Assembly: GCA_028818705.1 (NCBI GenBank)
Contig: JAPPNJ010000067.1
Span: 1 to 64,000 of the forward strand
Direction of reading: 5' to 3'
Length of the DNA stretch: 64,000 nucleotides
Origin: Candidatus Poribacteria bacterium
GTDB lineage: Bacteria > Poribacteria > WGA-4E > WGA-3G
Within the stretch, counting starts at the first letter, position 1. Every line of letters starts with the position of its first letter. The position numbers and the translations under genes were made by a program. Below, piece by piece: positions 1,141 to 47,906 of this stretch. Under the pieces are notes generated by a model that saw only the letters and a list, made by a program, of their open reading frames with translations, was not told where the DNA came from and ran no database searches.

Positions 1141-2013
1141 TCATAACGCCATGTTAAAGTCTGTGCCGGTTACATTGCCTTTCACGTAGGCATCGCGGAA
1201 GAGCGTTTGACGTTTGGGCGGCATCTTTTCAAGCAATGCCTGTGGTGGTTTCGATAAACTCCATCGCTTATCCACTGAATTATAGGCGTTGAAAACCGCC
1301 ACTCGATCAGTATCCGGATTTTGCCAAGGTTGCCCGCTATGTGTAAGAGCCTCGGTAAAAATAATGACCGATCCAGCGGGACAAGAATAGGTATCCCAGA
1401 ACTCCCACTCTTGTGTGTGGGCACCCTCTGGGGCAGTATATGCCGCTTTGTGACTGCCTGTAATGAACATCGTGCCACCGTCGTCCTTCTCCACGGGGTT
1501 AAGTTCCCAGACGACGCGCGTCAAACCGCTATAAGCCTGACCGGGGAGACACGAGTACTGATGGCAGTCTCCGGGCATTCGCAACATACCGTTGCCGTTG
1601 TGTGCGTGGAACTTAAAAGGCATCTCGTCACTCGTAGAACGCAACGCCAGAAAACTCATCTCCATGCGGAAGCCATAACATACATCCGAAGCAAGATAGG
1701 ACGATGCGAGAAATTCATTTCCGAATGCCACCACAACCGGATGATCTGTGAGTTGTTCCAAGGGACCGCCGTAAGTAGAGCGGTGGTGCTGTGGAATGGT
1801 TTCGGGCGCGTGCTTTAAACGGTAACAGAAATCGCGCATCTCCTCGATTTCCGAATCTGTTAGGACACCGGGAACCAAAAGCCAACCGTTCTTGTCGAAG
1901 AGATATTTTTGTTCCTGTGTTAGAGGCACAACAGGTTTCCCATCGGCGTTTGTCTGTGTAATATCAGCAGATGTTGTTGCCAATGGGCTCCCTAAGTCCT
2001 TGTTGAATTTCAT
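1141..2013 (-). CDS. Phytanoyl-CoA dioxygenase (PhyH) family protein
   Basis: Predicted Fe(II)/2-oxoglutarate oxygenase, 290 residues. The ATG at 2013 is preceded by AAGGAG eight bases upstream, so the upstream extension to 2121, which would overlap the aldo/keto reductase, is not used. Family hallmarks are LTQEQKYLFDKNGW near residue 31-44, FITGSHK (184-189) and ALTHSGQPW with His225. The position of the HxD motif reads FHAH (His136, His138), so the usual aspartate ligand is absent or replaced. This could mean an altered metal site or a non-oxygenase role. It lies 55 bases downstream of the aldo/keto reductase gene and may be co-transcribed with it. Confidence 0.85.
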   Translation of the reverse strand: MKFNKDLGSPLATTSADITQTNADGKPVVPLTQEQKYLFDKNGWLLVPGVLTDSEIEEMRDFCYRLKHAPETIPQHHRSTYGGPLEQLTDHPVVVAFGNEFLASSYLASDVCYGFRMEMSFLALRSTSDEMPFKFHAHNGNGMLRMPGDCHQYSCLPGQAYSGLTRVVWELNPVEKDDGGTMFITGSHKAAYTAPEGAHTQEWEFWDTYSCPAGSVIIFTEALTHSGQPWQNPDTDRVAVFNAYNSVDKRWSLSKPPQALLEKMPPKRQTLFRDAYVKGNVTGTDFNMAL

Positions 2014-42014: not shown

Positions 42015-42386
42015 TTAGTTGGCGACTTGCGCGCTAAACCCAACGTCTGTAACCGCCTTCACGAGCGCGTCTTTCTCAACTTTGCCCTTCTCGATTTTCA
42101 CCACAGCCTTATTCTCATCCATAGAAACGCTGACAACTTCAGAGACACCGGTAACCTGTGTGAGTGCATCCTGCACCTTACTGGTACAAGCACCTCATGT
42201 CATGCCGGTCACAGCCAGTGTCACTTCTTCAATAGCGACTTCTGCTGTTTGGCTGGGCGTTTCTACCGTTTCTTCTGCCGTTTGATTTGGTGTTTCCGCT
42301 GGTTTCTTCGACGTGTCAGCGCACGCGGCCACAAACAGAAGTGCCACAAAGCAGACAAATAGTACCCTCACGTTTAAGTGACGCAT
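42015..42386 (-). CDS. Selenoprotein: lipoprotein with Sec-containing HMA domain (downstream copy)
   Basis: 123 residues with selenocysteine at codon 64, encoded by the in-frame TGA at 42195-42197. ATG 42386 has AGAGGAA nine bases upstream. A signal with lipobox (LLFVAACAD) predicts a lipid anchor. A linker follows with two copies of TPSQTA/TPNQTA-like text, then VTLAVTGMT-Sec-GACTSKVQDALTQV: the heavy-metal-associated (HMA) motif GMTCxxC with the first Cys replaced by Sec. The domain continues VTGVSEVVSV to VGFSAQVAN and ends in TAA at 42015. A GGA-loop hairpin starts 18 bases after the TGA. Stopping at TGA would remove the entire metal-binding domain. Probably binds Hg, Cu or another soft metal outside the membrane. 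Confidence 0.88.
42164..42176 (-). promoter_or_regulatory. bSECIS-like hairpin of the downstream HMA selenoprotein
   Basis: On the minus strand, GTGCA-GGA-TGCAC, a perfect 5-bp stem with a three-base loop beginning GG. The loop starts 24 bases after the TGA at 42195-42197. Bacterial SECIS elements have such a stem-loop, with a G in the first loop positions, at this distance. Confidence 0.75.
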
Positions 42387-42550: not shown

Positions 42551-42943
42551 CTATTGGGCAAGCTCGGCACTGAAACCGGCACCACTAACCGCAGTGGTAA
42601 GAGCGTCAGTCGTAACTTTGCCTTTCTCAACCTTCACCACAGCCGTATTAGTGTCTGAAGAGACGCTCACCACTTCAGAGACGCCTGTGACCTTGCTAAG
42701 TGCATCCTGCACTTTACTGGTACACGCGCCTCATGTCATGCCCGTGACATTCAGTGTTATCTCTTCAACGGCGGCTTCCTCCATGGATTCTGCCATATCA
42801 GCCTTCGCCTCGGATTCCATTGTCGCTCCTTCCATGGAAGTAGCGGCAGTTTCGGACATCTCTGCTTTCTTTCCGAGCATACCACATCCTACCATGAATA
42901 CGAATGCGATAAGACAAATCAGCGATAATCTCGCGATATGCAT
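42551..42943 (-). CDS. Selenoprotein: lipoprotein with Sec-containing HMA domain (upstream copy)
   Basis: 130 residues with selenocysteine at codon 71 (TGA at 42731-42733). ATG 42943 has AAGGAGG seven bases upstream. The signal ends in a lipobox (FMVGC, Cys20). An Ala-, Glu- and Met-rich linker (about 22-62) leads to VEEITLNVTGMT-Sec-GACTSKVQDALS, the HMA motif with Sec in place of the first metal-binding Cys. The domain ends GAGFSAELAQ at TAG 42551. The next gene downstream encodes a paralogue with the same Sec position. A bSECIS-like hairpin follows the TGA. Function inferred: outer or periplasmic soft-metal capture or redox role. Confidence 0.9.
42698..42714 (-). promoter_or_regulatory. 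bSECIS-like hairpin of the upstream HMA selenoprotein
   Basis: On the minus strand, AAGTGCA-GGA-TGCACTT, a perfect 7-bp stem with a GGA loop. The loop begins 24 bases after the TGA at 42731-42733, the same spacing as in the downstream copy. Confidence 0.78.
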
Positions 42944-45984: not shown

Positions 45985-47304
45985 ATGTCATCGAAGAAAC
46001 CGGATATCGTTGTCTATCTGTCCGATGACCACGGCTGGGAGTATCTTGGTTGTTACGGGAACGAGCACATCCGAACACCACACTTGGATAGCCTTGCAGA
46101 AGAAGGCATCCGTTTTACACAAGCTTTCACGCCGACACCAACGTGTGCGCCTTCTCGTTCTACACTCTACACTGGACTCTATCCGGCTCGACACGGGGCA
46201 ATGGGGAATCATACGGAGTGCCACGCGCACCTCAAAGCGTTGCCTAACACGCTCCGAGAACTCGGCTACCGGGTAGCCATCGCCGGCAAGACGCATGTGA
46301 AACCGGAAACGCTCTTCGATTTTGAATATATCGGTGGATTCCTCTCAAAATATGCCGAGCATCATCGGAAATATCGGCAAGAAGGACTTGATACCGAACC
46401 TGTTGAGCGTTTTCTTTCAAGTCACCGACAAGAAAATCCAGATCAGCCTATATGTCTCATCCTCGGCGATAGCAACCCTCACGTCACGTGGGAACCGAAC
46501 AAGATTTATGATCCAGATGCTTTGCCACTACCGCCTTATATTGCCGACACACCGATTGCTCGCAAGGCACTTGCTAACTATTATCAAGACATTACCACAA
46601 TGGACACCCGCATCGGTAAAGTCGATAAAATGCTGGAAACACACGGGTATTCTGATAATACACTCTTTATCTATACGACCGATCACGGTTCTGAGTGGCC
46701 CCACTGCAAATGGACGCTATATGACACCGGTACGCGTCTGCCGTTTCTGGCGAAATGGCACGGAAAGATTCCAGCTACCACTGTCTCCGATGCGATGATT
46801 TCGCATGTTGACTTCTTACCAACGCTTATAGACATCGCAGGAGGCGAACCACCTGACAGTTTAGACGGTAGAAGTTTTAGGGATGTCCTGCTCGGAGAAC
46901 AGCAAACTTTCCGAGACAAAATCTATGGCACGCACACCCGAGATGGAAATATGAATGTTTTTCCGCAGCGTTGCGTCCGAGACAGTCACTACAAATACAT
47001 TTTGAATCTGATGCCTGAAAACAGTTGGACCACCCATTTCACCGAAGTTGAAGATATTCCGGAGAGCCACGCTGAAGTATGGAAGAGCTGGATAGAAAAA
47101 GCGAAGACCGATCCTGAAACTGCGAAACTCCTTTATCTGACACAACACCATCCAGTAGAGGAACTATACGATGTGGTAGAAGACCCTTATGAATTCAACA
47201 ATTTAGCCTTCAATATAGATATGCGTCCAACGCTCGAAAAGATGCGTGCCGATGTCCGAGACTGGATGCACTCACAAAACGACGAAGGGAGCCGTGAAAC
47301 ATGA
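45985..47304 (+). CDS. Formylglycine-type sulfatase
   Basis: Sulfatase or related alkaline-phosphatase-superfamily hydrolase of 439 residues, no signal peptide. ATG 45985 follows AAGGA; the frame extends upstream into the PhyH gene. The active site is clear: metal-binding LSDDHGWEYLG at the N-terminus and the C-x-P-S-R signature CAPSRSTLYTG (about residues 53-63), where Cys is converted to formylglycine, with AGKTH and later TTDHGSEW. A formylglycine-generating enzyme is not in the window. Its stop overlaps the next start (ATGA at 47301-47304). Substrate could be a sulfated glycan. Confidence 0.93.
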   Translation: MSSKKPDIVVYLSDDHGWEYLGCYGNEHIRTPHLDSLAEEGIRFTQAFTPTPTCAPSRSTLYTGLYPARHGAMGNHTECHAHLKALPNTLRELGYRVAIAGKTHVKPETLFDFEYIGGFLSKYAEHHRKYRQEGLDTEPVERFLSSHRQENPDQPICLILGDSNPHVTWEPNKIYDPDALPLPPYIADTPIARKALANYYQDITTMDTRIGKVDKMLETHGYSDNTLFIYTTDHGSEWPHCKWTLYDTGTRLPFLAKWHGKIPATTVSDAMISHVDFLPTLIDIAGGEPPDSLDGRSFRDVLLGEQQTFRDKIYGTHTRDGNMNVFPQRCVRDSHYKYILNLMPENSWTTHFTEVEDIPESHAEVWKSWIEKAKTDPETAKLLYLTQHHPVEELYDVVEDPYEFNNLAFNIDMRPTLEKMRADVRDWMHSQNDEGSRET

Positions 47305-47906
47305 AATCCAACTTCCTGAGTAATAGCAGTTCAGTCGGTCTCTTAGTTCTACTGGCAGCAGTCATTACCTCATGCTTTGCTTGCGAGGACGCCGAACGGA
47401 CAACACAAGTCATAACTTCACCTGAGGAGGGAGCCCAAAAACTTCCTTCGGGCGAAGGATTGGATCTCGGTGCAATTGCGCCCGATTTTTCATTACCAGA
47501 CAGCACAGGAAATACCCATAATCTTTCGCAGTATCGCGGACAGAATCTCGTCATTGTTTTCTACCGCACTGGCACATGAGGGAATTGTCGTGCGCAGCTC
47601 GGTGAGCTGCAAGAAAGCTACGAAGACATCCGAGCCGAAGGGGCTGAATTGATCGCCATCAGTGCAGATCCACTGACGCTTGTTGACTCAACACGAAAGA
47701 CACTTGAAATCACGTATCCGCTGCTCGTAGATACAAATAAGGTGACAATCACTGCCTACAATGTCATTGATCCGAGCGATACGGATATTGCGCGTGCAGC
47801 GACCTATATTATTAATCAGGACGGTCGTGTCGCATCGAAATTCCTGGATACATTTGAAAGGCGCACCGGTCCTGAACATATTCTCAGAGAATTAAAAGAA
47901 CTATAA
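47301..47906 (+). CDS. Selenoprotein: Sec-containing peroxiredoxin-like (AhpC/TSA) protein
   Basis: 201 residues with selenocysteine at codon 93, encoded by the in-frame TGA at 47577-47579. The start overlaps the sulfatase stop (ATGA). A signal-like hydrophobic region with Cys residues (VITSCFAC) suggests export and perhaps lipid anchoring. The thioredoxin fold starts LGAIAPDFSLPDSTGN and reaches VIVFYRTGT-Sec-GNCRAQLGEL, matching FYRxxxCPxCRAQL of AhpC/TSA proteins with Sec at the peroxidatic Cys and a Cys three residues on. It continues to ILRELKEL at 47906. A GGT-loop hairpin lies after the TGA. Likely peroxide or thiol-disulfide chemistry in the envelope. Confidence 0.92.
47594..47610 (+). 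promoter_or_regulatory. bSECIS-like hairpin of the peroxiredoxin selenoprotein
   Basis: GCAGCTC-GGT-GAGCTGC, a perfect 7-bp stem with a three-base loop starting GG. The loop begins 22 bases after the TGA at 47577-47579. Same architecture as the two hairpins at 42164 and 42698. Confidence 0.78.

Follow-up and report, generated by a model that had tools for sequence, protein, structure and literature searches.

Tandem lipoprotein genes with an in-frame TGA in Candidatus Poribacteria: selenocysteine-containing HMA domains with a probable role in soft-metal handling

The window analysed here, a stretch of 64,000 nucleotides, is contig C5 of a Candidatus Poribacteria draft genome (6.04 Mb, 232 contigs, 95% complete, 5.6% contamination). 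Its minus strand harbours two adjoining genes of the same arrangement, termed copy 1 and, on the downstream side, copy 2, which contain an in-frame TGA codon at the same site (Table 1). The reading frame originally proposed for copy 1 was re-derived: it extends from ATG 42943-42941, preceded by a strong Shine-Dalgarno sequence (AAGGAGG), to TAG 42553-42551, with TGA 42733-42731 as the sole internal stop, and yields 130 residues with selenocysteine (Sec) at position 71. Copy 2 was recovered by a search of the same genome (E=5.5e-30). The copy 1 product comprises an N-terminal signal, a linker predicted with low confidence and an HMA domain. As read by eye, both copies appear to carry a bacterial lipoprotein signal with a lipobox Cys (FMVGC and FVAAC), and Cys20 of copy 1 is at least 90% conserved in the alignment. 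Automatic annotation would stop both genes at the TGA, and the HMA domain would thus be lost.

Table 1. Features of the tandem pair, the third Sec-HMA protein of the genome and the multi-domain arrays of relatives
Feature	Location	Strand	Remarks
Sec-HMA lipoprotein copy 1, 130 aa, Sec71	42551..42943	-	open frame, Pfam HMA, conserved TGA
TGA read as Sec, first Cys position of GMTCxxC (GMT-U-GAC), copy 1	42731..42733	-	
Putative signal peptide of copy 1 with lipobox FMVGC, lipidated Cys20	42884..42943	-	read by eye
Putative SECIS apical hairpin copy 1, AAGUGCA-GGA-UGCACUU	42698..42714	-	minimum-energy fold, synonymous constraint
Sec-HMA lipoprotein copy 2, 123 aa, lipobox FVAAC	42015..42386	-	HMA 38.0 bits
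TGA read as Sec, copy 2	42195..42197	-	
Putative SECIS apical hairpin copy 2, GGUGCA-GGA-UGCACU	42163..42177	-	invariant bases as copy 1
PSCyt1-WD40 protein with C-terminal Sec-HMA, third Sec-HMA of the genome	L003 1492-3111	-	contig C156
Array L087 (genome G048)			4 Sec + 1 Cys
Arrays L088, L089, L090			each 3 Sec + 1 Cys
Array L091			3 Sec + 2 Cys

The peptide beyond the TGA had been predicted to complete an HMA domain, and Pfam indeed places PF00403 at residues 63-124 of copy 1 (E=1.4e-10, 41.8 bits; gathering cut-off 24.8), while copy 2 reaches 38.0 bits. The predicted domain of copy 1 shows the element order E H E E H E with a pLDDT of about 90, and its closest structure is oxidised MerP (1osd; TM 0.94, 42% identity). 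According to the model, the domain would adopt the beta-alpha-beta-beta-alpha-beta fold of HMA proteins with the GMxCxxC ligand loop, in which U stands for the first Cys.

The two products resemble several known families, yet fall below the cut-off of each. They share with MerP (TIGR02052; PDB 1osd, 1afi) an exported single HMA domain, the GMTxxxC loop and the best structural match, but score 49.5 and 47.6 bits against a cut-off of 92.55; moreover, they are predicted to be lipid-anchored, whereas MerP is soluble, and in their genome no MerA exceeds the cut-off and no MerT was found, in a search whose control was also silent. The UxxU metal-binding (seleno)protein family NF041115 likewise consists of small HMA selenoproteins, but its motif is UxxU rather than UxxC, and copies 1 and 2 reach 49.0 and 58.2 bits (cut-off 95). 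The MerT/CopZ fusion selenoprotein NF045683 (cut-off 375 bits) is matched in its CopZ part only, with 45.9 and 46.4 bits. This family and the Sec-containing E1-E2 cation ATPases also carry Sec in an HMA domain; they are membrane transporters, in contrast to the stand-alone lipoproteins described here.

The six frames of the window contain 2,348 TGA codons, 23 of which are flanked by comparably long open stretches. A GM[TS]UxxC match at the TGA occurs only twice in the whole window, in copies 1 and 2, and therefore the read-through frame of copy 1 is not due to chance. Relatives were sought in 83 genomes of the class and found in 76, where nearly all full-domain matches have a TGA at the same site. 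This recurrence, independently in dozens of genomes including closed chromosomes, excludes a sequence error at 42731-42733, and the homologues read through the TGA instead of ending there. The fetched loci yielded 87 distinct Sec domains and 9 Cys domains. Over the 28 codons downstream of the TGA, pN is 0.204 and pS 0.508 (pN/pS 0.40; 0.36 outside the hairpin described below), with pN lower than pS in 3,685 of 3,741 pairs; judged by these substitution patterns, the region after the TGA is under purifying selection. The suggested search for Cys-containing homologues turned up true orthologues of a related protein, the fusion of a planctomycete-type cytochrome c (PSCyt1), WD40 and HMA domains: L227, L228 and L229, from three genomes, have TGT or TGC at the TGA codon. 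In a further genome (G039), copy 2 (L102 about 1502-1800, minus strand) lacks ten residues in frame, TGMTUGACTS, which make up the whole ligand loop; this may be a real deletion or an assembly error.

All genes of the selenocysteine machinery that the original prediction proposed to look for, selA, selB, selC and selD, were found in the same genome, selC as two halves at contig ends. Full-length selA, selB and selD score 596, 338 and 361 bits, respectively, and selD contains an in-frame TGA of its own. A tRNA-Sec search of this genome gave nothing over the cut-off, its weak matches being other tRNAs. tRNA-Sec was found in 51 of the 58 genomes of the family, and in the closed relative G010 selC lies approximately 20 nt after selB. 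In the genome of the window, contig C202 extends for another 71 nt past selB; these last 71 nt hold the 5' half of tRNA-Sec including the TCA anticodon, the start of contig C27 holds the remainder, and the two contigs overlap by 11 nt. As judged from these contig ends and the arrangement in G010, selC is present directly after selB and merely split by an assembly break, and the lack of a tRNA-Sec match was dropped as an argument against a selenoprotein. A second selA appears to lie in two pieces at contig ends (contigs C163, C78 and C154), perhaps reflecting a strain mixture or a true duplicate.

Bacterial SECIS elements are recognizable by a conserved guanosine within a small apical loop (PMC1088965). 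Codons 7-11 after the TGA read GTG CAG NNT GCA CTN and would form the hairpin GUGCA-GGA-UGCAC, with a spacing of 23 nt between UGA and the loop G. GTG, GCA and the loop G each occur here in every one of the 87 Sec domains; at the remaining positions of these domains, GTG accounts for 20% of the Val codons and GCA for 19% of the Ala codons. In contrast, the Cys domains, with a near-identical protein sequence, have variable hairpin codons (GTA, GTT, GCC, GCG), and the four inner pairs form in 94-100% of the Sec domains versus 38-62% of the Cys domains. The Cys orthologues L227-L229 also lack the full set of hairpin bases, as GCG replaces GCA. In the distant L098 one compensatory change turns an A-U into a G-C pair on both sides. 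The minimum-free-energy fold of copy 1 is an extended hairpin that includes the candidate SECIS (z -4.58), while for copy 2 a different structure is preferred. Since only 40 of 82 Sec domains show the hairpin when the minimum-energy fold is computed from the single sequence, the case for a SECIS is based on synonymous constraint and not on folding energies. An extended conserved SECIS stem is not proposed, as RNAalifold returned the inner stem only, plus weak outer pairs. An RNA family scan of the window gave no match. With its G in a small apical loop, the putative hairpin fits a bacterial SECIS.

The genome encodes further HMA proteins. A third Sec-HMA domain forms the C-terminus of a protein with planctomycete-type cytochrome c and WD40 domains. 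All three exported HMA domains use Sec; the cytosolic ones, in a CopZ-like protein and a heavy-metal ATPase (L004, L005), use Cys. The tandem pair is embedded in a conserved gene order of phyH, copy 2, copy 1, a small Cys-rich protein and a GIY-YIG protein. In five relatives, four or five HMA domains are strung together in one exported protein (L087-L091), and Pfam recognizes 4-5 HMA stretches in the arrays tested. The arrays of L088 and L089 have the neighbours of the window's pair, phyH and GIY-YIG, on either side; L087 features both pair and array, and the L090 and L091 arrays sit on contigs of 5.0 and 5.5 Mb. Strings of HMA domains are also known from ATP7A/ATP7B-type proteins; the poribacterial arrays differ in that they are exported, lack a pump and contain three or four Sec domains.

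These comparisons allow the possible meanings of the TGA to be weighed. A default annotation would end the gene at this codon, in which case the downstream HMA peptide would be a pseudogene remnant or a sequencing artefact. The same-site TGA in dozens of genomes, closed ones included, the purifying selection downstream, the existence of Cys orthologues and the complete set of sel genes contradict a true stop, which we regard as essentially refuted and scarcely credible. Conversely, the conserved frame, the sel machinery, the Cys orthologues and the constraint on the hairpin strongly support the reading as Sec, and the in-frame TGA of copy 1 almost certainly specifies a selenoprotein. None of the three observations that had been named as speaking against such an HMA lipoprotein, missing machinery, homologues ending at the TGA or a sequence error, was made.

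The purpose of the Sec residue is a separate matter. Its UxxC motif is also compatible with a redox role, and the protein might harbour an envelope redox centre, akin to a selenenylsulfide reductase or peroxidase, instead of a metal site. Most UxxC selenoproteins are considered redox proteins (PMC1088965; PMC13188914), the third Sec-HMA domain is joined to a cytochrome c, and the closest solved structure is the oxidised form of MerP. On the other hand, both fold and GMxUxxC loop correspond to metal-binding HMA domains, and arrays with plain Cys-type HMA domains at their end look like multi-domain copper transporters; we therefore deem a redox centre rather unlikely, albeit the most serious competitor. 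If the protein stored or carried selenium, so that the Sec count itself was important as in selenoprotein P, this could account for three to four Sec within one exported array protein and for paired copies in the same slot. Yet every Sec is accompanied by a conserved Cys within an HMA ligand loop that is itself conserved, and the majority of genomes encode single-domain forms, neither of which a mere store would need, rendering this explanation improbable. The preferred reading, tandem lipoproteins that use a Sec-HMA domain for a role with soft metals, is probable when taken as a whole, metal role included.

We infer that Sec is actually inserted, and likewise propose a bound metal and a physiological role. 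In the suggested mechanism, SelB and tRNA-Sec read the UGA as Sec by means of the SECIS hairpin, which would start about 20 nt downstream of the UGA and overlap the VQDAL codons. The products would be HMA domains that are exported and held by a lipid anchor, with Sec in place of the first Cys ligand of the metal site (GMT-U-xx-C). A soft metal ion is the most likely partner of the resulting selenolate/thiolate pair, copper(I) being likelier than mercury(II), and the bound metal might be buffered or handed over within the envelope. The lasting reactivity of Sec and its resistance to over-oxidation would make it suitable for this compartment. The slot of the pair is occupied, in several relatives, by a multi-domain array that contains three or four Sec-HMA domains.

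The genomic context contributes little to the choice of metal. The synteny around the pair is strong, yet no mer or cop genes were recognized in the conserved neighbourhood; the adjacent genes were thus set aside as a clue to function. Mercury resistance is disfavoured as the role, as the MerA-like flavoproteins of the genome remain below the cut-off and no MerT was found in a search whose positive control was also silent. Copper is therefore the better guess, and the Sec-HMA lipoproteins probably handle this soft metal.

HMA domains with Sec in place of the first Cys are already known in kind. UxxC-type Sec-containing E1-E2 cation (P-type) ATPases have been tabulated (PMC13188914), and the statement in the original prediction that Sec variants of MerP-like proteins occur in the sea is borne out by two Sec MerP sequences from marine metagenomes in the GOS paper (PMC2398784). 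In a pattern scan, Sec at the first HMA Cys was detected in Planctomycetota, Chloroflexi, Aquicultor, Firmicutes, Acidobacteria and SAR324, and loci of Aquicultor and Chloroflexi contain ATPase-like frames with U at this position. In a long read-through frame of the Planctomycetota locus L116, a GMTUGGC motif precedes a further apparent HMA-like repeat.

The features that appear to be new are the tandem pair of Sec-HMA lipoproteins kept across the phylum and the poly-Sec arrays that some relatives have in the same slot. The open-licence literature yielded no description of either, which is weak evidence of absence, and no paper naming Poribacteria and selenoproteins together; a sponge metagenome study reports selA and selB as frequent in symbiont bins, with nothing further on Sec (PMC5649159). 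Known prokaryotic selenoproteins mostly contain one Sec and in a small subset two or three (2026 review, PMC13188914), a stated maximum that is exceeded by four Sec per chain. It is conceivable, at somewhat short of even chances, that Poribacteria operate an envelope soft-metal relay built from Sec-HMA domains, in which the conserved pair is enlarged in some lineages, at the same locus, to an exported protein with as many as four Sec-HMA domains, all having a SECIS of their own. Within the phylum a metal-binding loop with Sec is retained almost throughout, and some members repeat the Sec domain; Poribacteria are thus a clear test case for why Sec is preferred to Cys in exported metal sites. 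The plain Cys domains within the array chains offer an internal control, for SECIS function as well as for metal chemistry.

Finally, the window holds another in-frame TGA in an AhpC/ResA-like lipoprotein gene (47301-47903, plus strand). Here, the codon lies at 47577-47579 within FYRTGT-U-GNC, and the product is an apparent Prx-like UxxC selenoprotein.
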